From Candidatus Liberimonas magnetica (lineage in GTDB: Bacteria > Elusimicrobiota > Endomicrobiia > Endomicrobiales > JAFGIL01), in the NCBI GenBank assembly GCA_020523885.1, contig JAJAPY010000001.1, positions 310,001 through 374,000 on the forward strand: DNA of 64,000 nt, in the 5' to 3' direction. The notes below the pieces were generated by a model. The model did no database searches. It was not told the origin of the DNA and saw only the letters and a program-made list of their open reading frames with translations. Position 1 is the first letter of the stretch. Each line of letters begins with the position of its first letter. Shown in pieces: positions 2,401 to 43,658 of the stretch. The translations under genes and the position numbers were made by a program.

Positions 2401-3735
2401 ATGAATTACATCCCTGTAACGGATAAAGAAAAGCAGGAAATGCTTGCTAAAATAGGCGTTAAAACATCAGATGAACTATTTTCGTCAATCCCTAAATCTG
2501 CAAGAATAAAAGACCTGAATATTTCAGCCGGCATTTCAGAACAAGCCTTAATAAGACTGCTTGAAGATAAAAGCAAGAAGAATTCATCCCTAAAAGATTT
2601 TCTTAATTTTAGAGGAGCCGGGATATATGAACATTTCATTCCTACTCTTGTAGAAGAAATAACTTCAAGATCGGAATTTTCCACTGCGTATACGCCGTAC
2701 CAGCCGGAAGCAAGCCAGGGCACTTTACAGTCAATATTCGAGTATCAGAGCATGATAGCAGAAATTACCGGTATGGATGTTGCAAATGCCTCTATGTACG
2801 ACGGCGCAAGTGCCACGGCTGAGGCAGCTATGCTTTCTTTAAGAAGTTCAGGAAGAAGAAAACTTATTATTTCCGGCCTGCTTCATCCGGAATACCAACA
2901 GGTGCTTAGGACATACCTTCAAGGAACAGATGTGGATATAGAGGTAATCCAGCAAGTTGACGGCATAACATCTCTTTCAAAATTAAAAAACTTTGTGAAT
3001 AATGAATGCGCATCAGTAATTATACAATCGCCGAATTTTTTTGGCAGTATAGAAGACTTAGATGAGATAAGGAAATTAACTACAGAACACGGAGCACTTT
3101 TGATACAAGTATTAAACCCGTTATCTCTGGGGATATTAAAAACGCCGGGTGAAATAGGCTGCGATATCGCTGTAGGAGAAGGCCAGGTCCTCGGAAGTGC
3201 AACAGGTTTTGGTGGTTTTACTTTTGGTTTTTTTGCCGCAAAGAAAGCTCTTGCCTGGAAGATTCCCGGAAGGATAGTAGGGCAGACAATAGACACAAAA
3301 AACAGAAGAGGTTTTGTGCTTACCCTTCAGGCAAGGGAACAACACATCAAAAGGGAAAAAGCTACTTCCAATATCTGTACCAATGCAGCGTTAAATGCGC
3401 TTTCAGGATGCGTCTATTTATCCGGCTGGGGTCCTCATGGCTTAAAAGAACTGGCGGGATTAAATATACGCAAGAGTCATTATGCCTACGATAAAATATC
3501 TAAAGTAAAAGGGTTTGAACCGGCTTTTAAAAATCAGCTGTTTTTTAATGAGTTTGTTCTTAGGACAAAAAAAAATATTGATGAGATAGAAAAAAACCTT
3601 CTTTCCGAAAACATTATCGGGCCATTTGCTCTTAAAGGTTTCTATCCGGAACTTTCGGATTGCTTATTATTTTGTGTGACGGAAACAAAAACAAAAGAAG
3701 ACATTGATAAATTGGTGGCTATACTTGGCAAATAA
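2401..3735 (+). CDS. gcvPA: Glycine dehydrogenase (decarboxylating) subunit 1
   Basis: N-terminal half of the split P-protein. With GcvPB it forms the PLP-dependent glycine decarboxylase that loads the aminomethyl group onto GcvH. Its 444 residues match the two-subunit class, as opposed to the roughly 950-residue fused GcvP. Family signatures include NFRGAGIYEHFIPTLVEE, AYTPYQPEASQGTLQ, IAEITGMDVANASMYDGA and GFGGFTFGFFA. It is followed after one nucleotide by gcvPB, so the subunits are probably made by coupled translation. Confidence 0.96.
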   Translation: MNYIPVTDKEKQEMLAKIGVKTSDELFSSIPKSARIKDLNISAGISEQALIRLLEDKSKKNSSLKDFLNFRGAGIYEHFIPTLVEEITSRSEFSTAYTPYQPEASQGTLQSIFEYQSMIAEITGMDVANASMYDGASATAEAAMLSLRSSGRRKLIISGLLHPEYQQVLRTYLQGTDVDIEVIQQVDGITSLSKLKNFVNNECASVIIQSPNFFGSIEDLDEIRKLTTEHGALLIQVLNPLSLGILKTPGEIGCDIAVGEGQVLGSATGFGGFTFGFFAAKKALAWKIPGRIVGQTIDTKNRRGFVLTLQAREQHIKREKATSNICTNAALNALSGCVYLSGWGPHGLKELAGLNIRKSHYAYDKISKVKGFEPAFKNQLFFNEFVLRTKKNIDEIEKNLLSENIIGPFALKGFYPELSDCLLFCVTETKTKEDIDKLVAILGK

Positions 3736-3736
3736 A

Positions 3737-5173
3737 ATGGAAAAAATATTAATTGAATTGTCTCAGGAAGGGCAAATCGGATATTCAGTTCCGGAAAATG
3801 ATATGGGGGAAACTGATATATCCAAAATCTTGCCTCAAAAATATATGCGGGCAACTATCCCGAAGTTGCCTCAGGTAAGCGAACCTGACCTTAGACGACA
3901 TTTTACTAAATTGTCTCAGCTGAACTACTCTTTAACAACGAACTTTTATCCTTTAGGTTCTTGTACTATGAAATATAACCCTCCTGTTAATGAAAAGATC
4001 GCAAATCTGCCCGGATTAAGGTATTTGCACCCGTACCAGCCCGAAAACACCGTACAGGGTATGTTAGAGATACTTTATGAACTTCAAGATGTCTTCTGCC
4101 AGATAACCGGCATGGATAATATGACCTTACAACCCTCAGCAGGTGCTCAGGGAGAGTTTACAGGGCTTTTGCTCATCAGGGCATATTTTAAATCAAAGAA
4201 TGAAAGAAGAAACAAAATAATAGTGCCTGATTCAGCTCATGGAACAAACCCCGCATCTGCTAAAATAGCGGGATTTGAAATACTGCCGCTTCATTCAGAA
4301 CCTGACGGGCATATCGACCCGGCAAAGCTAAAAGAAATATTGACGGACGATGTCGCCGCTCTTATGCTTACTGCTCCGAATACGCTCGGTGTTTTTGAAA
4401 AAGATATTTTGATCTTAACCGATATGATGCATAAGAACGGCTCGTTATTATACTATGACGGCGCTAATTTAAATGCCCTTATGGGCCATGCAAGGCCTGG
4501 CGACCTCGGTTTTGACATAATCCATATAAACTTGCACAAAACCTTCTCTACTCCTCACGGCGGAGGCGGTCCCGGAGCTGGGCCTGTGGGTGTAAAGAAG
4601 GCATTAGAACCTTTCCTGCCGAAACCTGTAATTAATAAAAATAAAAACGTTTATTCTTTTATATACGACCGCCCAAAAAGCATTGGGAAAGTGCGCTCTT
4701 TTTACGGAAATATCCCGGTGCTAATAAAGGCTTATTGCTATATAAAAGCTTTGGGCAGAGAAGGTTTAAAAAAAGTAAGCGAACAGGCAGTGATAAACGC
4801 AAATTATTTGCTGGCGATACTTAAAGAAAAACTTCCTGCTCCTGCCGGGGACAGGTGTATGCATGAGTTCATCCTTTCAGGAAAACCTTTGAACAAATGC
4901 GGGGTAAAAACCCTTGATGTGGCAAAAAGGCTTCTCGATTACGGATATTATGCGCCGACCATATATTTTCCATTGATAATTGAAGAAGCTATAATGATAG
5001 AACCCACTGAAACAGAGTCAAAATCTACCCTTGATGAATTCGCAAGGGTTCTAATAAATATACTGGAAGAAGCCCAAAATACTCCTGATTTACTTAAAAA
5101 TGCCCCGCAAAACACGCCCGTAAGCCGCCTTAACGAAGTAGAAGCAGCCCGAAAACCCATCCTTCGCTGGTAA
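3737..5173 (+). CDS. gcvPB: Glycine dehydrogenase (decarboxylating) subunit 2
   Basis: PLP-binding half of the split P-protein. The ATG chosen lies one nucleotide after the gcvPA stop; in-frame codons further upstream fall inside gcvPA and would add an un-conserved tail. This gives 478 residues. The Schiff-base lysine is K268 in LHKTFSTPHGGGGPGAGP, and LGSCTMKYNP and LQPSAGAQGE are also diagnostic. No strong ribosome binding site is visible, consistent with coupling. It is the last gene of the glycine cleavage operon and is followed by an eroded heptad repeat. Confidence 0.96.
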   Translation: MEKILIELSQEGQIGYSVPENDMGETDISKILPQKYMRATIPKLPQVSEPDLRRHFTKLSQLNYSLTTNFYPLGSCTMKYNPPVNEKIANLPGLRYLHPYQPENTVQGMLEILYELQDVFCQITGMDNMTLQPSAGAQGEFTGLLLIRAYFKSKNERRNKIIVPDSAHGTNPASAKIAGFEILPLHSEPDGHIDPAKLKEILTDDVAALMLTAPNTLGVFEKDILILTDMMHKNGSLLYYDGANLNALMGHARPGDLGFDIIHINLHKTFSTPHGGGGPGAGPVGVKKALEPFLPKPVINKNKNVYSFIYDRPKSIGKVRSFYGNIPVLIKAYCYIKALGREGLKKVSEQAVINANYLLAILKEKLPAPAGDRCMHEFILSGKPLNKCGVKTLDVAKRLLDYGYYAPTIYFPLIIEEAIMIEPTETESKSTLDEFARVLINILEEAQNTPDLLKNAPQNTPVSRLNEVEAARKPILRW

Positions 5174-5180
5174 TCGAAGA

Positions 5181-5256
5181 AGTTTGTAGTTGTTAGTGAT
5201 TGTTAGTTGATAGTTCATAGTAAAATCCTAAAAGCTATAAACAGTTTTTTTATACC
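5181..5256 (+). repeat. Heptad inverted repeat 3 (eroded), after gcvPB
   Basis: The left arm (5181-5221) in reverse complement contains ACTATGA ACTATCA ACTAACA and further words in 7-nt register. The right arm (about 5230-5266) is only weakly complementary and runs into the next promoter, so this copy looks decayed. Confidence 0.55.
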
Positions 5257-5266
5257 TAAAACTATC

Positions 5267-5295
5267 TTGAAAAAGTAAAATATTTCTGATATACT
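5267..5295 (+). promoter_or_regulatory. Sigma-70-type promoter for the coiled-coil gene
   Basis: TTGAAA (5267-5272), 17-bp spacer, TATACT (5290-5295). The spacing is ideal, and a leader of about 25 nt would lead to the start at 5327. This separates the following gene from the gcv operon. Confidence 0.7.
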
Positions 5296-5326
5296 TTGTA
5301 CGTCAATTTACATAAAAGAGGTCTGT

Positions 5327-5689
5327 ATGTCAAAGAAACAAACATCAAAAAAGCAAAATGAAGAGCTTTTAACCCGAAAAGAATTTATTGGGATACATGA
5401 GGAATTTAAAAAGGATGTCAATCAACGATTTGAAAAAGTAGAAAATGCTCTTCAAAATCAGGCTAAAGCGATTTTAAAAAACAGTGATGACATAAAAATA
5501 ATTAAAGAAACGATGTCTACTAAAGATGATGTTGAAAAGATACTTACGGCTATTGACAGTTTTGCTTAAAAAAGCCAGGATGTAGAACGCAAGTCAATTG
5601 TAAACACGCATAGGATAAATGAAATAGAAGAAAAAGTCTCAAACCTTGAGAACCGTGTAAGCAGTCTGGAATCAACCGGTCATAAATAG
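5327..5689 (+). pseudogene. Coiled-coil protein gene interrupted by an in-frame TAA
   Basis: From the ATG, an 80-residue product runs to TAA at 5567-5569. It is rich in heptad-type charged residues (FEKVENALQNQAKAILKN). Directly after the stop the same frame stays open for 39 more codons, to TAG at 5687-5689. These encode the same kind of coiled coil (INEIEEKVSNLENRVSSLES) with no start codon or ribosome binding site. The simplest reading is one gene of about 120 codons broken by a single nonsense mutation. The short product may still be made from its own promoter. Function unknown; it stands just upstream of the fibre cassettes. Confidence 0.7.
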
Positions 5690-5746
5690 CATCCAGGCAA
5701 TTTTATTTTTAATTGTACAATCAGACAGCAGTGTCAATTTTCCCAC

Positions 5747-5776
5747 TTGACATTGTTTTTATTTTCATAATATACA
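5747..5776 (+). promoter_or_regulatory. Promoter for fibre cassette 1
   Basis: TTGACA (5747-5752), 18-bp spacer, TATACA (5771-5776). It lies upstream of the fibre-like gene, leaving a leader of roughly 55 nt with an AAGGGGG ribosome binding site. Confidence 0.65.
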
Positions 5777-5838
5777 ATATAGGTCAGGAAACATAAGTGT
5801 TTCTTAGCCCTAAAACTTATCTAACAAGGGGGCTTTCA

Positions 5839-6711
5839 ATGGCAGACACCGTAGTAACGTCAAATGAAGGATACCGCATAGACATTGACAACGCCAGCGC
5901 TTACAGCGATAAAGCATTCAAAGTATCTCACGACAACGGCACAGAACTTTTCAGAGTACAGGAAGACGGTAATGTTGGCGTCGGTGTGACTAGTCCGACA
6001 TATCCGTTTCAGGTATCAAAAGATGGGACGGAACTCAAAAATCCGGGCAAATCGGTAGGTTTATTTACAAATGCTGCGGTCAATCTTGGAATACATGTGG
6101 GTTATGATTCAGATAATGGCGGTGTAATTGCATCGGCAGGGGCAAATAAACCAATTACTTTCTGGACATATTATCCGGATTATGCAGAACGAGTAAGAAT
6201 TACAGGAAACGGTGCAGTAGGAATAGGTACCTCGAGCCCGGGAGCGAAGCTGGATGTAAGCGGTGATGCAAAGATAAGCGGGAATCTCGCGGTTGATACG
6301 AATGTTTTATTTGTTGATACAGCAAATGATAGAGTGGGAATAGGTACAGCAAGTCCGAGCAGTAAACTTGATGTTTCTGGTGATATTGAAATAGGAAGCG
6401 GGGATGCTATATATATTGGAGATCCCAATACAAACAACAGTTTGCGCATTCAGCAATACACTAATGCTTTTAGTTTTGAAAAACGGATTGATGGCAATTG
6501 GAATATTAGTACTGCTAGTATTGGAGTGGATGTAATAAGTGCAAATCAAATAAATGTGCCTACAGTAAATGCATCTACTCTTAATGTTGGAGATATATCA
6601 ATAGATGGGGTAATTCAAAACACCTCTGCATCTCCTGTTACTAATAAATTTTTGCGTATTTATTCAGATGATGATGAAAAGTACTACTATATACAATTAT
6701 GTGCAGTATAA
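5839..6711 (+). CDS. Tail-fibre-like repeat protein, cassette 1
   Basis: Predicted surface or secreted fibre of 290 residues; exact function unknown. It contains repeats of the phage-tail-fibre-type motif VGIGTSSPGAKLDVSG, followed by strand-rich linkers, which normally trimerise into a shaft. The start at 5839 (MADTVV...) follows AAGGGGG and matches the second cassette's MVDTY start; an ATG 42 nt earlier lacks a ribosome binding site. It ends in an acidic, tyrosine-rich tail (IYSDDDEKYYYIQLCAV) and lacks the S74 autoprocessing domain of its larger paralogue. No signal peptide is visible, so the export route is unclear. It is followed by a barrel protein after 30 nt. Confidence 0.75.
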   Translation: MADTVVTSNEGYRIDIDNASAYSDKAFKVSHDNGTELFRVQEDGNVGVGVTSPTYPFQVSKDGTELKNPGKSVGLFTNAAVNLGIHVGYDSDNGGVIASAGANKPITFWTYYPDYAERVRITGNGAVGIGTSSPGAKLDVSGDAKISGNLAVDTNVLFVDTANDRVGIGTASPSSKLDVSGDIEIGSGDAIYIGDPNTNNSLRIQQYTNAFSFEKRIDGNWNISTASIGVDVISANQINVPTVNASTLNVGDISIDGVIQNTSASPVTNKFLRIYSDDDEKYYYIQLCAV

Positions 6712-6741
6712 TATTTTTGAAATTAACCTGGAGGCAGTATA

Positions 6742-7413
6742 ATGACTAGAAATATATTGATAACAATAATTTGTTTTCAACTGGCATCAGCAATTTTGCT
6801 TGCAGAAGAAAATACAAAATTTTATTTCGTTCATAAATATCTCTTTTCAAATAATAATACATTAAGTGATGAAGTCGCATATTCTAACTCCAATACCAGT
6901 ATTTCTTCGCAAAAAGGGAAAGGCTACAGCTTGAACCTTTACGGGATAGGTATTAAATATAAAATTATATCCAATAGTTATCTGGATTTTGCCTATACGA
7001 TATTGCCTAATAAGGTTACTGTTACTAATAAAAGGTTTATTGATTATACTTATAATACTGATTCTATTTCAAATTATGACATAATTTCACTGAATGAAAT
7101 AGCGCTAGGATATATTTATGATTATAAGATTAGAAATAGGTTGTCAATACCTGCAGGAATAGGAATGAATTTTACAAGAGGCTCTATGTGGATTAATAGT
7201 TATGACAATTATTTGGCCAATGATTTTTCTCCATATTTAAAGTTAGGCATTAATTATAATCTTGCAAAACGTTGTGATGTTGGAATAAATATCTCATATA
7301 ATTGGCGAAAAAATCTAGATTTTCAAATAAATGAATCACGATCTTCGTCATCGAACATTAATATTGACATAAATCCATTATCAATTGAAGCAGTATTATT
7401 ACTGTATCTCTAA
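6742..7413 (+). CDS. Small outer-membrane beta-barrel protein, cassette 1
   Basis: 223 residues with a Sec signal peptide (about residues 1-22, ending ILLAEE). The mature part shows alternating aromatic/polar strands (YSLNLYGIGIKYKI, SYLDFAYTILPN, YLKLGINYN, DVGINISYNW) and a hydrophobic C-terminus ending LLLYL, as expected for a barrel of 8-10 strands. GGAGG precedes the ATG. It lies 30 nt after the fibre gene, and the second cassette has an equivalent barrel in the same place, which suggests it anchors or exports the fibre. No named family is recognised. Confidence 0.7.
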   Translation: MTRNILITIICFQLASAILLAEENTKFYFVHKYLFSNNNTLSDEVAYSNSNTSISSQKGKGYSLNLYGIGIKYKIISNSYLDFAYTILPNKVTVTNKRFIDYTYNTDSISNYDIISLNEIALGYIYDYKIRNRLSIPAGIGMNFTRGSMWINSYDNYLANDFSPYLKLGINYNLAKRCDVGINISYNWRKNLDFQINESRSSSSNINIDINPLSIEAVLLLYL

Positions 7414-31442: not shown

Positions 31443-33143
31443 ATGAAAAATAGAATATGGTCTATCGTTTTATCTTGCTGGTTTCTTTTAATATTCAAAT
31501 TGCCGCTTTTTGCAGTTATACATATTAATGGTACAGACACTGGCCCAAAGGAATATACAAGACCGGCAAAGAAATATGATGAACAAACCTTAATAAAAAT
31601 GGGTTATGCTCCCGAAAAGGTCATGGGGGTAGTAGCGCCTGCAACCGGGACTAAAAAAATTGCAGTAATACTCGTACAATTTACAATAAGCGGTTCTAAT
31701 ACTTCCGGACAAAATACCTTAACTTCCGGCGATATTGTAGGTTTTAATAACACCCTGGACTATTTGAAGAATTTTTATAATGAAGCCTCTTGCGGAAAAT
31801 TAGTGCTTGATATAACGTATTTCTATAATAATGGGACGGCATCTGTTTTAACAGGGAATGAAACTCCGTACAAGCTTAGCAGTTCGATGGCCAGCTATGG
31901 TGCTGATACAGAAGCCAGCCTTAGCCAGCTTATTCTGGATAGCTTAAACATGGTAAATCCGTCTGCCCTTAATTCTTCGCTCTATGACGCTGTAATTGTC
32001 GCACATGCAGGTTACGGCAATGAATCTACCTCAAATGCAGGAGATATCTGGTCTGCTGCTGTAGGGCCGTTTATAAACTCATCTGGTAATCAGGTGTCAG
32101 CAAACGGTTTTACGGATGGCACGAATATACCTGCAAGAGAAAGCAATGCAAGCCCGATAGGTGTAACCTGTCATGAATTTGGCCATATACTGGGCCTTTT
32201 TGACCTCTACTCAACAACTGATTCTAGAAGCAGGGTAGGTAAATGGTGCCTGATGGATTACGGCCCATGGGTAAATAACGGTTATACACCTACGCATCCA
32301 AGCGTGTGGTGCAAAAAATATCTGGGTTGGGTTAATCCAATCAAAATCACTAATGATGAGACAATTTCAGCTATCCTTCCGGTACAGATTTCATCAACTA
32401 CATCTTATCAGGTTCCGATACTTGGAAGCACACAGGAATATTTTCTAATATGCCATTCAACTGCATCAACTTATGACCCTAATACCCCGGGCGGGGGTAT
32501 AATGATCATGCATATAGACGAAGGAATAATTGACGGAAGTTCATTTATCGACAGGATGGCAAATAATTCTCTTAATAATTATTCCCATAATACAGTAGGT
32601 ATCGAACCGGCAGGCAATAGTGATCCAAGTAATCCTCCTTATGGAAATCCAAATGATCTTTGGCCGGGCATAAAAAAAACGTTCGCTTCTCCAGATTCTG
32701 ATTCATATTCGGGCAAAGTATCAAATATCACAATATCAAATATCTCGTTCTCAGGAAATAAAGCAGGTTTTGTAACGACGAACCTTTCCATGACAGATGT
32801 TGCGAGCATCCAAAGCATCGTAAATTACCCAAACCCTTGTGGCCAGGGATATTTCCATCCAAGGAAAAATACAGGTGTAATCACTACTTTTGCCTTAAAA
32901 CTATCAAAGGTTACAGATAATATAGGCTTATCCATATATAACCTGGCAGGCGAAAAAATTATAGATGTAGCGGGCAATAATTTTCAATTTAAGGTCACTC
33001 AATCATCGGATTATAAAATAGTTTATGAATATGACTGGAATGGAAAAAATCAGAATTTCGAAAATGTAGCGCCTGGTATTTATTTCTATAAATTCAATGT
33101 GGGAAATGAAACAAAAACCGGTAAAATGGCGGTCGCAAGATAA
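31443..33143 (+). CDS. Secreted M6-family metalloprotease with type-IX-like C-terminal sorting domain
   Basis: 566 residues. Signal peptide at about 1-25 (IVLSCWFLLIFKLPLFA). The zinc site is HEFGHILGLFD (H244, E245, H248, D254), the HExxHxxGxxD form of the M6/immune-inhibitor-A group, followed by WCLMDYGPWVN. The final 100 residues (VNYPNPCGQGYF, LSIYNLAGEKI, YDWNGKNQNFENVAPGIYFYKF, KTGKMAVAR) match the FlgD-like/type A C-terminal domain that addresses proteins to type IX secretion. A SprA-like translocon gene lies 2.4 kb downstream, so this protease is a good candidate client. Confidence 0.9.
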   Translation: MKNRIWSIVLSCWFLLIFKLPLFAVIHINGTDTGPKEYTRPAKKYDEQTLIKMGYAPEKVMGVVAPATGTKKIAVILVQFTISGSNTSGQNTLTSGDIVGFNNTLDYLKNFYNEASCGKLVLDITYFYNNGTASVLTGNETPYKLSSSMASYGADTEASLSQLILDSLNMVNPSALNSSLYDAVIVAHAGYGNESTSNAGDIWSAAVGPFINSSGNQVSANGFTDGTNIPARESNASPIGVTCHEFGHILGLFDLYSTTDSRSRVGKWCLMDYGPWVNNGYTPTHPSVWCKKYLGWVNPIKITNDETISAILPVQISSTTSYQVPILGSTQEYFLICHSTASTYDPNTPGGGIMIMHIDEGIIDGSSFIDRMANNSLNNYSHNTVGIEPAGNSDPSNPPYGNPNDLWPGIKKTFASPDSDSYSGKVSNITISNISFSGNKAGFVTTNLSMTDVASIQSIVNYPNPCGQGYFHPRKNTGVITTFALKLSKVTDNIGLSIYNLAGEKIIDVAGNNFQFKVTQSSDYKIVYEYDWNGKNQNFENVAPGIYFYKFNVGNETKTGKMAVAR

Positions 33144-33185
33144 GGCATAACTAAATAAATCCAAACCGAAAAAATCCAAAATATT

Positions 33186-34265
33186 TTACTTCTTAACTTT
33201 AATTAGCAAAATAATCCCTATGAACCCAAATACGATATTCCCAAGCCACGCAGCTAATATTGGGGATACAACCTTATTCTCTCCCAAAGACTGCCCGATA
33301 GCTTGTACTGCCCAATAGAAAGAAGCAAAGATCAATGCAAAAGTAAAACTCAGTATCTTTCCGTGTTTACTTCCGAAGCTTAAAGCAAACGGGATACCTA
33401 AGAACATAACGATAAGGTGGCTTAAAGGTAAAGCCCATCTTAAATGCATAAGAATGACTTCCTTTTCAACAGGGATCCCGATGTTTTTTAAGCGGCTTAT
33501 GTATTTTTTCTGTTCTTTAAAAGACATCTGCTCTGGACGTTTGCCGACATGAATGAAGTCCTCTGGTGTAAAAGGCAAGCCAATGATTTTTTTTGCAAAA
33601 TATGCCTCGCTGAAACGATTGCCGTTAAAAATACGCTCTACTCCATTTTCCATATGCCAGTTCTTCCCGTCAAAACTTCCTTGAGGAGAAACTAACTGTG
33701 AAACTAATACAAAATCTTTGTTGTAATAATCTATAACGATATTTTCTACCCTGCCCAAATTGGCATTTAAATAACCTATGGTCATTCTGCCGTTCTCGGG
33801 TAAGGAAATTACAAGGTTGTGATGCTCGAACTGTGTTTCGATATTTTCTTTTTTTATCAAGGAAATTCTTATATATTCAGCCCTATTGGTAGTATAGGGT
33901 ATTATCTTTTCTCTTAAAATAACATCTATTAAACCAATAACTATTCCGCAGATTATAAGTAATCCGATTATGCGCCATAGATTTATACCGGCTGCTTTTA
34001 TTGCGGTTATTTCGCCGCTCCTAGCAAGCCCTCCTAATGAAAACAGGACCGCCAAGAGTACTGCTACGGGAAGTACTTGAATTATCCACCAAGGCAGGTT
34101 AAGAAACAAATATTCAAAAACGTAAACGAATGAAGCCTTTTTTTCAAGGTAAAAATTCAATTCCCTGAAGAATTCCGACAATAAAACCAGCCCGCCAAAC
34201 ACAACAGAGCTGAAGAGCAGGGGCTTAAGGAATTCTTTGACTAAATAACGTGTGATTATATTCAT
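33186..34265 (-). CDS. lptG: LPS export permease, LptF/LptG (YjgP/YjgQ) family
   Basis: 359 residues with the family layout. Three N-terminal helices (LLFSSVVFGGLVLLSEFFREL, IQVLPVAVLLAVLFSLGGLARSGEITAIKAAG) are followed by a periplasmic beta-jellyroll of about 160 residues, then three C-terminal helices. Together with the neighbouring paralogue and LptB it forms the inner-membrane ABC exporter that lifts lipopolysaccharide to the Lpt bridge. It is second of the two on the minus strand, 9 nt after its partner, hence the tentative lptG label. Evidence for a diderm cell. Confidence 0.9.
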   Translation of the reverse strand: MNIITRYLVKEFLKPLLFSSVVFGGLVLLSEFFRELNFYLEKKASFVYVFEYLFLNLPWWIIQVLPVAVLLAVLFSLGGLARSGEITAIKAAGINLWRIIGLLIICGIVIGLIDVILREKIIPYTTNRAEYIRISLIKKENIETQFEHHNLVISLPENGRMTIGYLNANLGRVENIVIDYYNKDFVLVSQLVSPQGSFDGKNWHMENGVERIFNGNRFSEAYFAKKIIGLPFTPEDFIHVGKRPEQMSFKEQKKYISRLKNIGIPVEKEVILMHLRWALPLSHLIVMFLGIPFALSFGSKHGKILSFTFALIFASFYWAVQAIGQSLGENKVVSPILAAWLGNIVFGFIGIILLIKVKK

Positions 34266-34274
34266 CTTCTAAGA

Positions 34275-35372
34275 CTATTTTTTCAACATATTATGCCAGA
34301 GCCAGCCTCCTAATACCAAAGAAATAATGTTTGGCATACACAACATTATTGCTGGCGGTACGTAACCCTTTTCTGCTATATTTAGACCTGTTATTAATAG
34401 CATGTAATAACTAAAAAGTATCAATAAGCTGAACCCAAAACTAATGGATTTTCCGCCTTTCTCAAGGATAATGCCTAAAGGCATGCCTAGGCCGGCAAAA
34501 ATAAAAGGCGCAAAGGCTAATGTTAATCTCATCCAGTATTCGGTTTCTAAAAAATGGATCGGCAAATTCTTTTGTTTAAAATTCTTAATTTCTTCTAAAA
34601 TTGCCTTCCCTTTCATTTCCTTTAAGGATTGGCTAAAGGGCATGGTTTTTTCTGTGATAGGTATAGTAAACATGTAATTTGAAAATTTCATATGGACCAG
34701 GTTCTCGGGGCGGACAGGGTTGGGTTTTTGCCAATAGCCGTCTTTAAGGTTGAATACTATTTCTGAGGGTGTCACAGAAACATATGAAGTTTGAGCTCCT
34801 ATGCGCCAGAACGATGAAGCGTCATCTTTTGTGTTCGAAAACTTATAGATATTTATGCCTTTTATAAGGTTATTCTTTTTATCGACTTTGTTAACGTAGA
34901 CCTTGTACTCGTCTATATTTATTATAGCTTTTTCTTCGAATTTGATTAATGGTTTTTGTTCAATGATCTCTTTATAGATCTTTCTAAATTTATTGTGAGT
35001 AAGAGGGGCGATATTCTGGTTAAAGTACACTAAAAAAATACTCAAAGAAAGTATCAACAATAAAACTGGGGAAGTAAAATCCCAATATTTAAACCCTGTT
35101 GAGCGAAGGGCTGTTATTTCATTGTCTTCAGAAAGCCTGCCATAGGATAAGAGGATCCCAAACAAAACAGCCATGGGTATTGTTAACGTTAAGATATTGG
35201 GCAAAACCAGAATAAAAAGTTTTAAAACAGTCAAAGAGGGTATCCCCTTTGACAAAAGCAGGTTTACAAGTTGAAATACCTGATCTATTAATAAGATGCA
35301 GGAAAACACCAAAAGGCCAAAAATAAATGATTCGACAAACTCTTTTAAAATATATTTATATATTATTTTCAT
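34275..35372 (-). CDS. lptF: LPS export permease, LptF/LptG (YjgP/YjgQ) family
   Basis: 365 residues, paralogous to the gene after it. YILKEFVESFIFGLLVFSCILLIDQVFQ, TLTIPMAVLFGILLSYGRLSEDNEITALRSTG, then a periplasmic domain and C-terminal helices (LAFAPFIFAGLGMPLGIIL). First of the pair in transcription order. It is divergent from the sprA-like gene; the 199-bp AT-rich spacer between them must hold both promoters, but none is strong enough to call. Assignment of F versus G is by order only. Confidence 0.9.
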   Translation of the reverse strand: MKIIYKYILKEFVESFIFGLLVFSCILLIDQVFQLVNLLLSKGIPSLTVLKLFILVLPNILTLTIPMAVLFGILLSYGRLSEDNEITALRSTGFKYWDFTSPVLLLILSLSIFLVYFNQNIAPLTHNKFRKIYKEIIEQKPLIKFEEKAIINIDEYKVYVNKVDKKNNLIKGINIYKFSNTKDDASSFWRIGAQTSYVSVTPSEIVFNLKDGYWQKPNPVRPENLVHMKFSNYMFTIPITEKTMPFSQSLKEMKGKAILEEIKNFKQKNLPIHFLETEYWMRLTLAFAPFIFAGLGMPLGIILEKGGKSISFGFSLLILFSYYMLLITGLNIAEKGYVPPAIMLCMPNIISLVLGGWLWHNMLKK

Positions 35373-35571
35373 ATTTAATTTTCAATTATTTATCTCTATA
35401 CGATATATAACCTGCGAGATTTTCTATTATAGCAAAAATTCTGGTAAAATCAAATAAAATTAGCTATAATAATTAAAAATTTGCTGACAAAACCAAAATG
35501 TTTTAATTTACTGCTTTTTTGCAGTTTATCATAATTTATTGTTTAAAATCTTTATTATTTTAAATTAATCA

Positions 35572-38500
35572 ATGAAAAAACGCATTATATTATCACTGTT
35601 TATTTTATTTTCCCAAATGGCGGTAATCCAATCATTGCATGCTCAAAATATTCTAAACACAAAAAAGAAGTTTTCTATTTTGCAGGACAATAAAGAAATA
35701 TTGCTTTCAATCTCAACATCTCCGGCAAAAAGTACTCAAACTTACCAGACTAAAACCTCGACTTCACAGGCAAATAACGTCACAATATCTTCCCAGACAG
35801 CGAGTATAACACCTACTGAACAAGCCGGCAAGGAATTATTAAATTTTCTTGAACAGAAGAAAATATTATTTTACAGTAAAGAAAGATGGCTTAAAATGCG
35901 CGAGCGTATTGAAGGAACCGGAGAATACCAGCCAGGAGGGGTAAGTGTAAGTACAGCTCCAAAGGCTGCGCCTGCACCATTGCCGCCCGGTCTGACTGTC
36001 GAACTCCCGTATGAATCCCAGCTTTCAATAACAGGCAGGAAGACCATAGGTGTGGCAGTAAAAGCGACTATATATGAAAAACCGGATCCTATAAAAAGGA
36101 TTTCTTCTTCATCAATTGATATGAACCAGGAGTTACAGGTCAGGATCAAAGGCCGCGTGGGAAGAAAAATAAATGTCAACGTTGACTTTGACGATACAAG
36201 TGCAGACAAAAGAGATATATCCGTAGTATACAAAGGCGACCCGAAAGAATTTGTCCAGGAAGCTGCCTTCGGGGATATATCAATGTCTCTTCCTTCTACG
36301 GAATTCGTAGGGTATTCACGCCAGCTTTTTGGCATAAAACTGCTTACAAAATATAAAAGCTGGAATTCCTGGAATTTCTTCAGCCGCACAAAGGGAGATT
36401 CTGAGGTGAAAAGATTTACAGGAAATACACAGCTTGTAAGGCAGAGCATAGCCGATACTTCTTACATACCCTTTAAATACTACCTCATAAAATTCGGAGA
36501 TGATAAAATAAAAAACGGAACTGTGAAAGTCTACAGGGACGACCGTATCGCAAGCAACAATAATATAAATACATCGACTAATACGGTAGTAGAAACCAAA
36601 ATAGACTCGCTGACAACCATAAACCAAACTTACACGGGTGATTTTGACCTGCTCGTTGCCGGCCAGGATTATACGATAGATTACGACAGGGGCATAGTGA
36701 TCTTTAGAAATTCTCTGCCGTCAAACCATGTGGTCGCAGTAGATTATCAAAGGCAAGGAGATGGTTCTTTCTTGAGGGATGATGACGGAAGACTTAAGAT
36801 AGTAAAGGACGAATCAAATACGAACGGCATTACAAGAGAATTAAAAACGTTTTATAATTTAGGAAATGTTAAAATAATCCGGGACGATAGCCGCGGTAAC
36901 TTTATTCTTAAAGTGCAGGACTTAAACGGAGATATTCCTAAAGCGATAGAAGGCGGGAAAAAAGTACCTTTATATTCAACGGTTTCAAACTCCGATATAA
37001 CAGTAGATTTTGAAAGCGGAGTCTTCTTCTTTGAACCTCCGGACCAAAAGCCTTTCCATAATGAATTGTATACGACAGCTAAACATCTATATAATATTTT
37101 TGTAGAGTACCGCTACCGGGTAAAGATAATAAGCCTCGGCAGGTTCGGGATCGTTCCCCAATCAGAGCGTATAACGATGGACGGCAAAGTCATAGTCAGG
37201 GATGCAGATTACTATATCGACTATGACGCCGGCATAGTTACCTTGTTCAATGAAGAAAAAATAAATGAAAGTACAGTTATAGAAATTTCGTATGATTACG
37301 CGCCGTTTGGAACTGCCGGCGGATCAACTTTAGTAGGGACAAGGTCTGAACTCTCCTTAACAAAGAACATTTTTGTCGGCGGTACATTCATTTATAATTT
37401 TGCGGCCAATACCGTAAAGCTGCCGGATATACGTACAACCCCTACGTCTTTAATGGTCTGGGAATCTGATTCAAGGATAAAGGACATTAAACTCCCCTTT
37501 ACGCCCATGAAACTCTCTATAGGCGGGGAATATGCTCAAAGTAAGAATAATCCGAATACCATGGATAAAGCAGTAATCGAATCAATGGAAAGCATAAAAC
37601 TTGAGGATTCTGTTTCATTATTTAACGAGTCCTGGAAACCCGGGAGTAACCCGGACGGATCAAAGTATTACTTAAATGACATAACCTGGGGCAGTGCTAT
37701 GATATCAAAAAGGGATATTAACACGAGCCTTGACCAAAATAACCAGGAAAAGCAGCAAGTTCTTGTAATTGACTATTCCCTAGACCCGCTCCGTCAAACA
37801 GAACTGTCGATCGTACAACCGATATCCAATGTCGGTGTGGATTATTCTAAAAAGCTTTTTCTTGAGACCTGGATTCTGGGTGACGCAAAGGGCGAAGAAT
37901 TGCTCATTTCATACGGATCTTTTAACGAAAGGGTTGATAGCGATGTAAATACTCTGCCAAAGACAGAAGATAAAAATCAAGATGGTACCCTTGGTACTGG
38001 AGAAGATATAGGATGGTTTTTTATAAATCCTGACGGGAAAAAGGAAACGGTAAATATAAAGGCAAAACTCGATACTGAAGACTTAGATGGCGACGGTGTC
38101 CTAAAGACTGCTGATACTATAGCTTCACCCGGGCCGTTTGGCCTGGGACAGGGAAAACAGTTGATAGATAATAACGGTGTAGCTTATTCAGCTGTTACCT
38201 GGTCAGGATGGAAATATTTTAAGGTACCGTTAAATATAACCAATTTTGATGACTGGAAAGGCATTAAGCAGGTAAGGATTACTTTGCGCAACAGTGGAGC
38301 TGGAACAAAAGCCGGGCATATAGAAATAGGGAACATATCCTTGATAAGCAACAGGTGGGAGATTTCAGGAAATACGGTTGCAGGCAGCACTATTGCTATA
38401 TCTGCAATAAACAATGAAGAAAATCCGGACTATGCATCCTTAAGGACATACCCTGATTACCAGAGCCTTTATGATATGCAAAGCACCGATTCTCTTACAG

Positions 38501-41001
38501 CAAGGGAACAGGCCTTATCTGTAAGATACAACGTGTATAAAGCAACTACAGCCGAGCTCGGTACCAGGCTCCTATTCGGAAGAGCCTATGACCTGTCTAA
38601 CTACAAATATTTTAAATTCTTTGTATACAATAAGAATGCCGACGGTGATACTATTTTTCTACAGGTAGGCAATGACACGAACTATTTCGAGTACTCTGTT
38701 CCGGTAAACTGGGCCGGGTGGAAATTAATAACTATCCAGCAAGCAGATATAAACGGTGATAATAAACCTGAGAAATGGCTTGCTGACGCAACACCCGGAG
38801 CAAAAACAAAAATCACCGGTAACCCAAATTTGCTTAACATAAGCCAGCTGAGGGTCGGGGTAAGAGCCAAGGGCCCTGACAAATCAGGTGAGGTTTGGTT
38901 CAATGAGATACATGTCAGCGAAGCGTGGAAAAAAGAAGGGAATGCCTGGCGTTTGAATACCGACCTTGACTGGCCTGGCTGGATATCTATGGGGGGGAAA
39001 AGAAAGTCAATAGATAGAAGTTTTCAAACTTTTTCTGCGGATGTTTATAACCGGGATTATCTGGAAGATTCGGGATATTTTAATCTTGTAAGAATCCCGT
39101 TTCTGCCTATCAATACAAACCTTACCAAAACAAGAACGATTACACCTGCGGTCGCTCAAAATCAGCCCGGGGACCTTGTATCTATACTTCAAGAAGGACG
39201 GGTAATAAGTTATACGGGTTCTGCTTCTGCCAATCCAAACCTTCAACTGTTCTTTTCACCGGTAACCAAATATATTCCTGTTATGCGAAAGCTCATTCCG
39301 ACTATAGGGGGTTCATACTCCAGGTCTATAACCGATTCAAACCAGATAAAAAGGCTTGAGGACAAAGATACCTTAAGCGGGAATTTAAGTTATGAATTTC
39401 CTCTTAAATTCGATAATTTTATGCCCTTTAAAACCGGGCTTAACATTTTTCCGGGCAACATTTCCGGAAATTATAGTGTAACAAATTCTTTCTTTAAGGT
39501 CTATCCTTCGACAAGTATCACTGACAGTGATAGCTTTCTTAGCCTTGATACTTTAAACAAGTATCTGGAGATCTCTAATTATAGTACATTGGAAATAACC
39601 GAAGCCTGGAGGGCAAATGCGCCTTTCCAGTTCTGGAAAAACTTTACATTTTCTCCCAGCTACAGTTTGTCTAAGGTAAAGGCAAAAGATAAAGCCTTTG
39701 ACTCTTCTCATGAACAATATCCAAAAGCTGCAAGCCAGAATGTAGCCGCGAGTTCAAGCTTAAGGATATTTTCCTGGCTCAATCCGGCATTTTCATATAA
39801 TATTACTACCAATGAAAACTATAATTTATATTATAGTACGGTAAACCCGTTTAAAATAATTTATCCTTCTCAAACAAAATATATAGACAGGAACAGTAAT
39901 GCGGAAGTTAGCTGGAATTTTCAGGTTAAAGATGTGGTTAAGACAAAATATTTCGAGTCTTTGGGGTTTGCAGCTTCCTATAAGCAATTTGATAATGATA
40001 TATATGAAAATGTTGAGAGTTCTTATAGCGTAATAGGGATCTTTGACAGCAAAAGATTATGGATACGCGAAAATCTGCTCAAACCTTTAAACCCGGGCAA
40101 TACTACATTTTACAGAATAAAATCCATAACGAAAAGAGATGACAGACGGCTCTCCGGTAATTACAAACCGTTTGAGGCTTTTCCAATCACCGGCAGGTTT
40201 TCTCCGTTCAAAACCTTATCTACAAACTTTACGTACACGGACAGCCTTCAAAACACATACACTACGGGGACTCAACAAGATGTGTTGACTGTGCTTTGGC
40301 CGGACCTTAACATAGGGCTTAACAAATGGGAAAAGTTAGTCTGGCTTGAGAGATGGCTTGATGATTCAAGTTTAAACCTGCGCCACCAAAAAAAATATTC
40401 TACTACTTCAAGCGTTTCTCAAAACAATACCCTGACCTATGGAAGTGACATAAGGTTCCGTTTAAAGAAAAGACTCGAATTAAGTTTGGGAGGAAATTAC
40501 TCTAACACTAAAGACGAAGACCTTACAAAAATAGTCCCTATAGTTACTAATAAGGGCGACAACACGTCCTTGTATACCCAGACAGGTTTTAATATAAAAG
40601 TCTGGCGTTTTACAGTAAGGTATGATTATGCCAAAAACTTTGGTGAAGACGGGGCAGGCAAGATAACCGCAGACCTGATAACTCATGCCGGTACAGTACA
40701 AACAAATGCAGATATGTCGTTTCCTCACGGCCTTCCGCTGCCGTTTACTAAGAGGACCCTGCCTTTAACTAACAGGCTGATATTTAGTTCAAATTTAAAA
40801 TATATCAGCAAAATCTCCTCGATTAATATCGGAACAGACAATACAGACCAGTACAGCCTGAGCTCTACAGGTGATTATGAAATATCACAAAACTTCAGGG
40901 CAGCCTTAGGTTTTGGTTATAGCTACCTTATGAACAGGAGTGATTCCGACCAGAATTTTCATGCTCTTGAAGCCTCAGCTAAATTAACGATACAATTCTA
41001 A
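35572..41001 (+). CDS. sprA: SprA-like giant outer-membrane protein (type IX secretion translocon homologue)
   Basis: 1809 residues; Bacteroidota SprA is usually 2300-2500. Signal peptide at about 1-25 (LSLFILFSQMAVIQSLHAQ). SprA-typical blocks are LQVRIKGRVGRKINVNVDFDD, ISVVYKGDPKEFVQEAAFGDIS, YSRQLFGIKLL, the repeated DYDxGIV blocks (YTIDYDRGIVIFRNSLP, YYIDYDAGIVTLFNEEK), and a long strand-rich barrel region ending KLTIQF with a terminal phenylalanine. SprA forms the outer-membrane pore through which folded type IX clients leave the cell. No ribosome binding site precedes the ATG; TTGTTT-16-TAAATT lies 5 nt upstream of it, possibly a leaderless start. Confidence 0.85.
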   Translation: MKKRIILSLFILFSQMAVIQSLHAQNILNTKKKFSILQDNKEILLSISTSPAKSTQTYQTKTSTSQANNVTISSQTASITPTEQAGKELLNFLEQKKILFYSKERWLKMRERIEGTGEYQPGGVSVSTAPKAAPAPLPPGLTVELPYESQLSITGRKTIGVAVKATIYEKPDPIKRISSSSIDMNQELQVRIKGRVGRKINVNVDFDDTSADKRDISVVYKGDPKEFVQEAAFGDISMSLPSTEFVGYSRQLFGIKLLTKYKSWNSWNFFSRTKGDSEVKRFTGNTQLVRQSIADTSYIPFKYYLIKFGDDKIKNGTVKVYRDDRIASNNNINTSTNTVVETKIDSLTTINQTYTGDFDLLVAGQDYTIDYDRGIVIFRNSLPSNHVVAVDYQRQGDGSFLRDDDGRLKIVKDESNTNGITRELKTFYNLGNVKIIRDDSRGNFILKVQDLNGDIPKAIEGGKKVPLYSTVSNSDITVDFESGVFFFEPPDQKPFHNELYTTAKHLYNIFVEYRYRVKIISLGRFGIVPQSERITMDGKVIVRDADYYIDYDAGIVTLFNEEKINESTVIEISYDYAPFGTAGGSTLVGTRSELSLTKNIFVGGTFIYNFAANTVKLPDIRTTPTSLMVWESDSRIKDIKLPFTPMKLSIGGEYAQSKNNPNTMDKAVIESMESIKLEDSVSLFNESWKPGSNPDGSKYYLNDITWGSAMISKRDINTSLDQNNQEKQQVLVIDYSLDPLRQTELSIVQPISNVGVDYSKKLFLETWILGDAKGEELLISYGSFNERVDSDVNTLPKTEDKNQDGTLGTGEDIGWFFINPDGKKETVNIKAKLDTEDLDGDGVLKTADTIASPGPFGLGQGKQLIDNNGVAYSAVTWSGWKYFKVPLNITNFDDWKGIKQVRITLRNSGAGTKAGHIEIGNISLISNRWEISGNTVAGSTIAISAINNEENPDYASLRTYPDYQSLYDMQSTDSLTAREQALSVRYNVYKATTAELGTRLLFGRAYDLSNYKYFKFFVYNKNADGDTIFLQVGNDTNYFEYSVPVNWAGWKLITIQQADINGDNKPEKWLADATPGAKTKITGNPNLLNISQLRVGVRAKGPDKSGEVWFNEIHVSEAWKKEGNAWRLNTDLDWPGWISMGGKRKSIDRSFQTFSADVYNRDYLEDSGYFNLVRIPFLPINTNLTKTRTITPAVAQNQPGDLVSILQEGRVISYTGSASANPNLQLFFSPVTKYIPVMRKLIPTIGGSYSRSITDSNQIKRLEDKDTLSGNLSYEFPLKFDNFMPFKTGLNIFPGNISGNYSVTNSFFKVYPSTSITDSDSFLSLDTLNKYLEISNYSTLEITEAWRANAPFQFWKNFTFSPSYSLSKVKAKDKAFDSSHEQYPKAASQNVAASSSLRIFSWLNPAFSYNITTNENYNLYYSTVNPFKIIYPSQTKYIDRNSNAEVSWNFQVKDVVKTKYFESLGFAASYKQFDNDIYENVESSYSVIGIFDSKRLWIRENLLKPLNPGNTTFYRIKSITKRDDRRLSGNYKPFEAFPITGRFSPFKTLSTNFTYTDSLQNTYTTGTQQDVLTVLWPDLNIGLNKWEKLVWLERWLDDSSLNLRHQKKYSTTSSVSQNNTLTYGSDIRFRLKKRLELSLGGNYSNTKDEDLTKIVPIVTNKGDNTSLYTQTGFNIKVWRFTVRYDYAKNFGEDGAGKITADLITHAGTVQTNADMSFPHGLPLPFTKRTLPLTNRLIFSSNLKYISKISSINIGTDNTDQYSLSSTGDYEISQNFRAALGFGYSYLMNRSDSDQNFHALEASAKLTIQF

Positions 41002-41083: not shown

Positions 41084-41797
41084 ATGCCGTCTCTACAGCA
41101 ACATATAATTAATTTATTTTTCCCGGTCACATGTATTCAATGCGGTTCGGATCTGGCAGCTGATGATAACCTGAGAGTCTGTTCGGATTGCTGGCGAAAC
41201 ATAAAACAAATAGGGGATATATATTGCCAAAAGTGCGGCTCCTATCTGCCCGATGGGGGGGCTTTGTGCTATACTTGCAAAAAAAACCCAAAATATTACT
41301 TTGAGTACCTGCGCGCTTACGGCATGTATGACGGTGTTTTAAGGGATTTAATACACAAGTTTAAATATAAGAACAGGGATTACCTTTCAAGGTTCCTAGG
41401 CAAACTTCTTAAAGACACGATACAAAAGCATAAAGAGCTCATAGATGTAGATTATATTATCCCAGTCCCGATGCACTGGTTTAAGAAATTATTAAGAGGT
41501 TATAATCAGACAGAACTTCTTGCATTGAATATCTCTAAGTATTATGGAAAGGCCGTATTAAATAATTCGCTTATAAGGACAAAATATACAAATTCACAGA
41601 TAAAGCTGAAAAAAGAGGAAAGGATGGGAAACATAAAAGGCTGTTTTTCCGTTAAGTACAGAGAAACCCTTAAAAATAAAAGAGTTTTATTGGTTGATGA
41701 TGTTTGCACGACGGGAGCCACAATAAATGAATGTTCTAAAGCCTTGAAAAAAGCAGGCGCAAGCAAAATTTATGCTGTAGCTGTAGCGCGGGATTAG
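41084..41797 (+). CDS. comF: ComF-family phosphoribosyltransferase-like protein
   Basis: 237 residues. An N-terminal zinc-ribbon-like segment has four CxxC pairs (CIQCG, CSDC, CQKCG, CYTCK). A PRPP-binding domain follows: DYIIPVPMHWFKKLLRGYNQTELLA and RVLLVDDVCTTGATINEC. In naturally competent bacteria ComF takes part in DNA uptake at the cytoplasmic side; in many others its role is unknown. A run of seven G lies in the coding sequence at 41255-41261. Confidence 0.93.
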   Translation: MPSLQQHIINLFFPVTCIQCGSDLAADDNLRVCSDCWRNIKQIGDIYCQKCGSYLPDGGALCYTCKKNPKYYFEYLRAYGMYDGVLRDLIHKFKYKNRDYLSRFLGKLLKDTIQKHKELIDVDYIIPVPMHWFKKLLRGYNQTELLALNISKYYGKAVLNNSLIRTKYTNSQIKLKKEERMGNIKGCFSVKYRETLKNKRVLLVDDVCTTGATINECSKALKKAGASKIYAVAVARD

Positions 41798-41864: not shown

Positions 41865-43658
41865 ATGAATATAAAAAAAATAAAACTATTTATAAATATA
41901 GGGTTGTTATTGGGTGGCAGTATTTTCTTATGCTCTGGATGCAGTTCTCTTGAGAGGAGTTTGATCTCCGGGGATGACAACATAAGGCAGTCTGCTTTGG
42001 ATAAATTAACCATTCTTGAGCCTTACCAAAAGGCTAAGCTTGTTAATCCTCTTTTACAAGACCTTGATAGCAGCTATTGGGAAGTAAGGGCAAGGGCTGC
42101 GGAGGCTTTAGGTTCGATCACGGATAAAAAAGTACTTGAGGCGCTAGTAAAAGCATTGAAAGATGACGATAAGGAAGTTAGGGTCAAGGCTGCGCAATCT
42201 CTGGGAAAATTAAGGGATCCCAATTCGATAGCTCCATTAATTGAAGCTACAAACGATAAAGAATATGATGTCAGAAAAAGTGCCGTGATAGCTTTGGGTA
42301 TAATAGGGACATGCGCATCAGGAGATGAGGAAGTACTCGATGCACTTATAAAAATTTTGAAGGATGTTAATAATGATTTAAAAATAGATGCATTATGGTC
42401 AATTGTGTGTTTTGGCGAAAAGGCCATAGAGCCTCTTTTCGGGCTTCTAAAAGACGAAAACTTCTATATTAGATGGACAGTTGAAGCAGGCTTGGTGAAT
42501 ATAGGGGCAACAGCTGCAAAATATTTGGACGAAGTATTTCCAAACCAGGAATGGTTTGTAAAATGGCGGATAGTAAAAATGCTTGGTTTGATAAAAGGCA
42601 AGGAAAGCAATAAAGCCCTGGAATATTCACTAGGAAGTAATGAAGATGTAAAGTTCAAAGCTACCGAAGCTCTTGGGCTAAAAAACAACCCGGATATGGT
42701 TCAACCATTATTAAAATATCTTAAAGATAAGGATCCCAATATCAGGATGAGGGTAATCGAGTATCTTGGGTTTTCTGAAAATAAAAACGTTATAAAGGAT
42801 ATACTGCCTTTCATTAAAGATGGAGATAAAAATATCAAAGAAGAAGCTTTAGCATCTATTGATCTGCTGGGATATAAGCCGGACACGTTGGAAGATAAAA
42901 TTACTTATTTTGTTTCAAAGAAGAAGTGGCCTGAGCTGAACGGTCTTGGAACCAAAACGGTTAAGAAGTTGATAGAAATGCTGTATAATACAACAAACGA
43001 TGATATAAAAGCCATGTTCATTGAAGCACTCGGTGAAATGAAATACAGGGCCGTATTCAGGCCCGTTTTGTCGAATGCGCGCAGTGTAAATCCCAAGGTG
43101 CGCTTGGCAGTACTTGAAGCTTTGACGAAAATCCAGGATGTTGATATCATTGATGAAGTAATAAGTGCGTTACACGATGAAGATGAAGGTGTTGTAATAA
43201 AAGCTATACAAATTTTAGCAAAAAAGAAGGACCAAAGAGCGATCAAATCCTTAGTAAAAATACTTGCTTCCGAAAGCGTCAGGGTACGGGATGAGTTGAT
43301 AACCGCACTTGTAAGTTTTGGCAAACCGGCTATAAATGCCGTTATTTCAAGATTGAGAGATAATAATAGTGCAAGAGATGCTGCTATCAAGATACTTGAA
43401 AATATGACTTTTATTGAAGCCAAGGCAGGCCTTGATAATTACTGGCATCAAAAGCAGGTCAAACTAAAAATAGAAAAAGAGAAATCAAGAAAAAAACCGA
43501 AAGTAAATAAAAAGGATGAATCGGAGGATAAACAAGGATCAGCCGTGACAAATGGTCAAAAAGATGATAATAATAAAGTACAGGAAAATCAAACGCAAAA
43601 AAGCAATGAAGATGAAAAAAAGACCGATGCGAAAAAAGGCGGCGAAAACAACAAATAG
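41865..43658 (+). CDS. HEAT-repeat lipoprotein
   Basis: 597 residues. A signal peptide ends in the lipobox LCSGC (Cys about residue 25). From about residue 50 there are a dozen or so PBS-lyase/HEAT repeats of the form D-x-x-x-x-VRxxAAxALGxIxD, such as YWEVRARAAEALGSITDKK and DKEVRVKAAQSLGKLRD. A low-complexity, very charged tail (KEKSRKKPKVNKKDESED and onward) ends the protein. Likely a periplasm-facing scaffold; partners unknown. No Shine-Dalgarno; TTGTAA-17-TAAAAT ends 13 nt before the ATG. Confidence 0.87.
   Translation: MNIKKIKLFINIGLLLGGSIFLCSGCSSLERSLISGDDNIRQSALDKLTILEPYQKAKLVNPLLQDLDSSYWEVRARAAEALGSITDKKVLEALVKALKDDDKEVRVKAAQSLGKLRDPNSIAPLIEATNDKEYDVRKSAVIALGIIGTCASGDEEVLDALIKILKDVNNDLKIDALWSIVCFGEKAIEPLFGLLKDENFYIRWTVEAGLVNIGATAAKYLDEVFPNQEWFVKWRIVKMLGLIKGKESNKALEYSLGSNEDVKFKATEALGLKNNPDMVQPLLKYLKDKDPNIRMRVIEYLGFSENKNVIKDILPFIKDGDKNIKEEALASIDLLGYKPDTLEDKITYFVSKKKWPELNGLGTKTVKKLIEMLYNTTNDDIKAMFIEALGEMKYRAVFRPVLSNARSVNPKVRLAVLEALTKIQDVDIIDEVISALHDEDEGVVIKAIQILAKKKDQRAIKSLVKILASESVRVRDELITALVSFGKPAINAVISRLRDNNSARDAAIKILENMTFIEAKAGLDNYWHQKQVKLKIEKEKSRKKPKVNKKDESEDKQGSAVTNGQKDDNNKVQENQTQKSNEDEKKTDAKKGGENNK

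Follow-up and report, generated by a model that had tools for sequence, protein, structure and literature searches.

A probable type IX secretion variant with dedicated, wall-tethered carriers in Elusimicrobiota

Introduction

Type IX secretion is best described in Bacteroidota. In Flavobacterium johnsoniae, a carrier binds the type IX C-terminal sorting domain (CTD) of the substrate in the pore of the translocon SprA and then leaves together with it, and the conserved lysine of type A CTDs contacts PorV (PMC10994853). The CTDs of Porphyromonas gingivalis have a common lysine in the last strand (PMC11285876). For type B CTDs of F. johnsoniae, the shuttle gene immediately follows that of the substrate; the shuttle is believed to remain as the anchor, and PorE-like proteins tie some of these shuttles to the cell wall (PMC9143113, PMC12618676). 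A survey from 2016 found type IX genes in Bacteroidetes alone (PMC4793230), and a 2024 paper gives them as absent outside the phyla of the Fibrobacteres–Chlorobi–Bacteroidetes (FCB) group, among which Rhodothermota are listed (PMC11285876). In the open literature (subscription journals and preprints not covered), we came across no description of type IX secretion for Elusimicrobiota. Here, we describe a sprA locus from a member of that phylum, Candidatus Liberimonas magnetica, located in a stretch of 64,000 nucleotides (assembly GCA_020523885.1, contig JAJAPY010000001.1, positions 310,001 to 374,000), referred to below as the window.

We consider it probable, from sequence comparison, that the window carries the translocon locus of an Elusimicrobiota variant of type IX secretion, in which dedicated, wall-tethered carriers would operate without the canonical motor and sortase. 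An initial annotation of the window had suggested a type IX system outside Bacteroidota, a suggestion now supported by SprA homology, by further CTD proteins and by partners of the PorV family.

A shortened SprA is widespread in the phylum

The translocon gene is located as follows:

35572..41001 (+ strand): sprA, outer-membrane translocon homologue of 1809 aa, recognized by a sub-cut-off match to TIGR04189 and by a profile match to 6h3i

The initial annotation had already picked out this 1809-residue protein as a SprA homologue, shorter than its counterparts, and both points hold. The SprA/Sov equivalog profile TIGR04189 matched it at 3.6e-48 with 163.7 bits, below the 200-bit cut-off. A search of the PDB with the single sequence returned nothing, and a profile of relatives was needed; the profile built from 21 relatives matched SprA of F. 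johnsoniae (6h3i) at 2.9e-34 over three collinear stretches. Because the profile reaches 6h3i at this level, we take the homology to be real, and by these comparisons the product is judged a genuine, shortened SprA (1809 aa compared to 2403 aa in F. johnsoniae).

A single copy of sprA was found in the genome, the assembly of which has 3.39 Mb and a completeness of 97.8%. Across the phylum, SprA was present in 107 of 120 genomes of Elusimicrobiota, the sample that was also used below for the PorV-family and TIGR04183 counts. Named relatives and their loci are the best 80 of 417 from a contig scan, all of them records of Elusimicrobiota type; the titles of these 80 are nearly all Elusimicrobia, Elusimicrobiota, Endomicrobia or Endomicrobium, with a few given just as "bacterium". 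The names Endomicrobiales, Endomicrobiia and Elusimicrobia among the relatives place the organism in Elusimicrobiota (Endomicrobiales), so that the earlier guess of a different phylum proved right. A search of plasmids for SprA yielded one SprA, from Parabacteroides.

Two damaged copies were encountered. One reduced genome of the Endomicrobium group has a SprA remnant with two stops (G017:C1:953512-953781), and a different genome (G064, locus L052) has one in-frame TAG within an otherwise full SprA. It is possible that these represent ongoing loss.

Sorting domains are paired with their own barrels

CTD sites and barrel sites were located by separate genome-wide searches, and the DNA stretches around the matches were then read. 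Type A CTDs were searched for with TIGR04183 (cut-off 23 bits), type B CTDs with TIGR04131, and carriers with the PorV/PorQ subfamily profile NF033709 and the PorV equivalog profile NF033710. TIGR04183 matched 34 places in the genome at E ≤ 0.001, and a tuned profile gave 39 CTD genes, type A plus some type B, many of which exceed the TIGR04183 cut-off. There are also about 35 PorV/PorQ-family genes by NF033709, many of them over the cut-off; the cut-off of NF033710 was reached by no gene searched. The initial annotation had proposed to look for further CTD proteins and for PorV homologues, and had reasoned that their absence would point to a different function of the giant protein. With about 39 CTD proteins and about 35 PorV/PorQ-family barrels, the genome holds both.

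In 25 cases out of 39, a CTD gene is followed immediately on its own strand by a gene for a PorV-family barrel, with a median gap of 51 bases (binomial P ≈ 1e-38, assuming 3000 genes per genome). The converse comparison took one PorV locus from each of 20 genomes, the present one among them: a CTD gene lay directly beside the barrel gene in 13 of these loci and within a few genes in 15. Members of a pair also vary together: distances between CTDs and distances between barrels were correlated over 24 pairs (Mantel r = 0.82, 0/5000 permutations). This first test could reflect one close subfamily, and it was repeated after similar CTDs had been removed, leaving 18 pairs (r = 0.54, 0/5000 permutations). 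Among the domains of the substrates are subtilase, NHL/RCC1 propeller, fibronectin III and carboxypeptidase-regulatory-like ones, a content that surface proteins would be expected to have.

When the paired CTDs of the genome were read by eye, all but four had the last-strand lysine. The barrels paired with these four scored below 75 bits to NF033709 in every case, compared to 1 of 21 for the lysine-bearing CTDs (P = 4e-4, for a 75-bit split that was picked after the scores had been seen). Two of the barrels paired with these four match PorP/SprF, and the lysine-less CTDs at L209 and L223 exceed the type B cut-off (TIGR04131). Since the lysine-less CTDs pair with low-scoring barrels and some pass the type B cut-off, CTDs here seem to be split into type A and type B, as in Bacteroidota.

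Some CTD proteins are of unusual size. Small proteins of 135–233 aa that are largely CTD (L228:4232-4639, L235:6642-7208, L239:4443-5003, L241:3687-4235, L236:6173-6721 and L232:3611-4312) often lie 3' of a large open reading frame and 5' of a carrier, and are perhaps separate adaptors. At the other extreme, sorting-domain matches at G037:C6:90200-90490, G004:C3:110811-111176 and G030:C6:189653-189958 fall in open reading frames of 17343, 14455 and 13077 aa, respectively, which are probably giant surface proteins.

Carriers have additional C-terminal modules

Seventeen of the 25 paired barrels are at least 400 aa long, exceeding the 300–340 aa of a barrel. Extra C-terminal modules, seen on paired and unpaired barrels, include OmpA (L227, L235), LysM (L214, L229), CsgG/LpoB (L211, L212, L216, L220, L224, L239) and TPR (L205, L206, L228, L235). 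The OmpA modules resemble the OmpA part of PorE. An AlphaFold2 model of the sprA-linked carrier from L174 had as its top matches PorV-size chains of 8gl6 (1e-14) and 6h3i (4e-14), which we take to be PorV, in part from their length; the C-terminal part of the model matched LpoB (5e-6).

At L240 (G000:C25:33000-37912), the reading frame of a PorV-family gene is broken into two that overlap (2928-3702), through a frameshift or an assembly error.

The sprA neighbourhood and joint loss

The neighbours of sprA in the window are:

33186..34265 (− strand): lptG, PF03739 match at 2.4e-78; a conserved neighbour that is no part of the type IX machinery
34275..35372 (− strand): lptF, PF03739 match at 1.5e-76; a conserved neighbour, divergent from sprA
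41084..41797 (+ strand): comF-like gene, TIGR00201 match at 4.1e-36; follows sprA immediately in most relatives

The PF03739 matches and the positions of the reading frames agree with the initial annotation, which had put lptF and lptG between an M6 protease gene and sprA. The order lptG-lptF/sprA-comF, with lptFG divergent from sprA, is mostly kept in 20 genomes from many families, and the comF family was found in 19 of 21 sprA neighbourhoods. In the window, an M6 protease gene with a CTD adjoins lptFG/sprA; at least 11 of the 80 named loci show the same arrangement, which usually includes a PorV-family gene. Because lptFG/sprA-comF is kept phylum-wide and the linkage of the M6 gene recurs, the neighbourhood is not due to chance. 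Farther along in the window, sprA-comF is followed by a gene for a 597-aa HEAT-repeat protein (41865-43658).

The synteny of lptFG and sprA raises the question of whether the SprA-like protein serves outer-membrane or lipopolysaccharide (LPS) biogenesis, with the CTD/PorV pairs exported by other means. Retention of SprA in 31 genomes that lack a TIGR04183 match would fit such a role. However, lptFG is gone from four loci of the Endomicrobium group (L131, L134, L136, L140), where a CTD gene, a PorV-family gene, sprA and comF follow each other on the same strand in an apparent operon. Furthermore, PorV-family genes are absent solely where SprA is absent: all eight genomes without a PorV-family gene also lack SprA, and every genome with a SprA match has PorV (Fisher P = 1.5e-9). 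PorV and a CTD are also SprA's very partners in the solved translocon (PMC10994853). We therefore regard a role of SprA in envelope biogenesis instead of CTD export as very improbable.

Joint loss of PorV and SprA was also seen within genus g2 (P = 3e-5), and a TIGR04183 match was lacking in 11 of 13 SprA-less genomes, compared to 31 of 107 with SprA (P = 1.6e-4). These P values are weakened because the reduced genomes share ancestry, and gaps in the assemblies may account for some of the losses. The joint loss links SprA to the CTD/PorV pair families. Gut genomes of family f12, Elusimicrobiaceae-like (e.g., G003 and G025), keep SprA and 2–6 PorV-family genes, mostly without a TIGR04183 match.

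Motor and sortase

Searches for GldL, GldM, GldN and the peptidase domain of PorU covered 60 genomes of the phylum each. In this set, which had no type IX-positive control genome, there were no credible matches to GldM and none to GldN; GldK was left out of the search, since cross-matches to the FGE-sulfatase family were expected. Peptidase_C25 was not found in 59 of the 60 genomes, including this one; the sole matches (G006:C83:8486-8974 and C55:15182-15640) are in one genome. The initial annotation had listed GldM, GldN and PorU among the components to be checked, and these thus failed to appear, apart from C25 in that one genome. Matches to GldL were weak, reaching 1.8e-5 in one genome, and were rejected as chance because they also occurred in 9 of 14 control genomes. 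Matches to the PorU profile, found in many genomes, cover almost solely its C-terminal sorting domain and were not accepted as PorU. No motor genes were found in the conserved sprA neighbourhood.

These results bear on whether the system is a canonical one, unusual only in the number of its carriers, with GldK-N, SprE and PorU present but too diverged to be recognized. SprA and PorV themselves fall under their equivalog cut-offs, and other parts may likewise escape detection; the weak GldL matches could be read in the same way. Yet GldM, GldN and C25 yielded almost nothing in 60 genomes each, whereas SprA, PorV and CTDs were readily found; the GldL-like matches recur in controls, those to the PorU model fall chiefly in the sorting domain, and the sprA neighbourhood is conserved without motor genes. 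A fully canonical system thus appears unlikely.

The system had been described initially as perhaps minimal. This fits the failure to find GldM, GldN and the C25 peptidase of PorU, but not the carrier side, which is expanded to about 35 PorV/PorQ-family genes. Because of this expansion, the gene content points to a different architecture, not simply a smaller one.

The M6 protease beside sprA

The protease that adjoins lptFG has the following features:

31443..33143 (+ strand): M6-family metalloprotease of 566 aa, TIGR03296 match at 3.3e-39, with a signal-peptide-like N-terminus and a C-terminal CTD
32172..32186 (+ strand): HEFGH zinc-binding motif, the M6 active site, residues 244–248
32865..33140 (+ strand): type A sorting domain, approximately residues 475–566, with last-strand Lys561

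Its description as an M6 protease with a type IX-like sorting domain was confirmed by TIGR03296 and by TIGR04183, which gave 29.8 bits in a scan confined to the C-terminal 119 residues. H244, E245 and H248 (HExxH) and K561 are invariant in 13 homologues. The predicted model weakly matches PorZ (5m11) and the CTD chain of the NucA substrate (8glk_D). Matches to M6 at L131 and L136 (≈24–25 bits) were judged to be due to the CTD alone and not to an M6 domain.

One speculative addition to the variant proposed here is that the sprA-linked M6 metalloprotease replaces PorU in the removal or exchange of CTDs. The enzyme has its own CTD, as PorU does, its active site is invariant in the 13 homologues, its gene adjoins lptFG/sprA both in the window and in 11 of the 80 named loci, and C25 was not found in 59 of the 60 genomes searched. 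The linkage at the sprA loci is nevertheless patchy, the linked CTD protein of the Endomicrobium-group operons is no clear M6 protease, and secreted M6 proteases are plausible as ordinary substrates. Moreover, there is no sign of any CTD cleavage, and we consider a substitution for PorU quite doubtful. A broader proposal, that the system lacks both the GldKLMN motor and PorU, with every substrate pulled out by a PorV-family carrier of its own, the wall-bound periplasmic domain of the carrier supplying or replacing the pulling force and the sprA-linked M6 enzyme as the sole processing enzyme, is tentative and, in our judgement, rather unlikely.

Discussion

Under the preferred reading, that of a type IX variant with dedicated, wall-tethered carriers, a substrate with a signal peptide and a CTD would reach the periplasm by Sec. 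Loops of the dedicated PorV/PorQ-family carrier, whose gene follows that of the substrate, would then bind the CTD within the barrel of SprA; type B CTDs would use weaker-scoring, sometimes PorP/SprF-like carriers. After leaving SprA together with its substrate, the carrier would stay in the outer membrane to anchor that substrate, and in many cases its own C-terminal OmpA, LysM, LpoB/CsgG or TPR module would connect the carrier to the cell wall or periplasm. Since the searches failed to find GldM, GldN, a convincing GldL or, in all but one of 60 genomes, C25, export would have to be powered, and CTDs removed if they are removed at all, in ways that differ from the known ones or by unrecognized proteins. 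The sequences directly show the homologies, the pairing and its correlated divergence, the fusions, the spread across the phylum and the failure to find these components. Transport itself, the permanence of the anchor, retention of the CTD and an alternative or absent motor are all inferred from the anatomy.

Several observations weigh against this reading. The 31 SprA genomes without a TIGR04183 match, mostly of gut family f12, may use SprA in another role, or their CTDs may have diverged. The M6 protease of the window has no adjacent barrel partner. The component searches covered GldL, GldM, GldN and PorU/C25, but not GldK, SprE, SprT, PorE and PorZ. SprA is under its own equivalog cut-off, and the control genomes, none of which had a SprA match (0/14), provide no positive control; for both reasons, the profiles could have missed motor proteins that are present in a strongly diverged form. 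The L174 carrier model is moderately confident (pLDDT 70.7, pTM 0.54).

If Elusimicrobiota have a system of this kind throughout the phylum, with a separate carrier for each substrate, this would alter the picture of type IX secretion as confined to the FCB group, and would raise the question of whether a rotary motor is needed for export. The approximately 25 natural CTD–carrier pairs in one genome are material for a recognition code. The proposed system would also suggest a function for many genes annotated as PorV/PorQ family, as well as for surface proteins of very large size in bacteria from termite gut, rumen and groundwater.

Comparison with known systems

With the type IX systems of F. 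johnsoniae and P. gingivalis, the Elusimicrobiota system shares SprA, PorV-family barrels, type A and type B CTDs, and the last-strand lysine of type A. It differs in that Bacteroidota use one shared PorV for type A substrates, whereas here there is a large family of PorV/PorQ genes, most of them paired one-to-one; in the fusion of carriers to wall-binding modules; in the failure to find GldM, GldN and the C25 sortase; and in its occurrence outside the FCB group, the stated limit of type IX secretion (PMC11285876).

A similar pair is found on the Rhodothermus marinus plasmid pRMAR01 (L244), where a 1132-aa "hypothetical protein" (2499-5897) ends in a type A-like CTD and a PorV/PorQ gene (5869-6936) overlaps the end of its gene. 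Because of this pair, CTD–carrier pairing is not unique to Elusimicrobiota. It is a single example, from Rhodothermota, and is followed by a peptidoglycan-recognition-family gene.

There is also a likeness to SprB–SprF and the other pairs of a type B substrate with a PorP-like shuttle, in which the shuttle gene lies directly 3' of the substrate gene and the shuttle is thought to act as an anchor, with an OmpA-type link to the wall. Unlike SprB–SprF with PorE, the Elusimicrobiota pairs combine CTDs mainly of type A with shuttles of the PorV/PorQ family, and the OmpA, LysM or TPR module is on the shuttle polypeptide and not on a separate PorE. By analogy, the Elusimicrobiota pattern looks like the shuttle logic of type B extended to type A CTDs, carrier and wall anchor being joined in one polypeptide.
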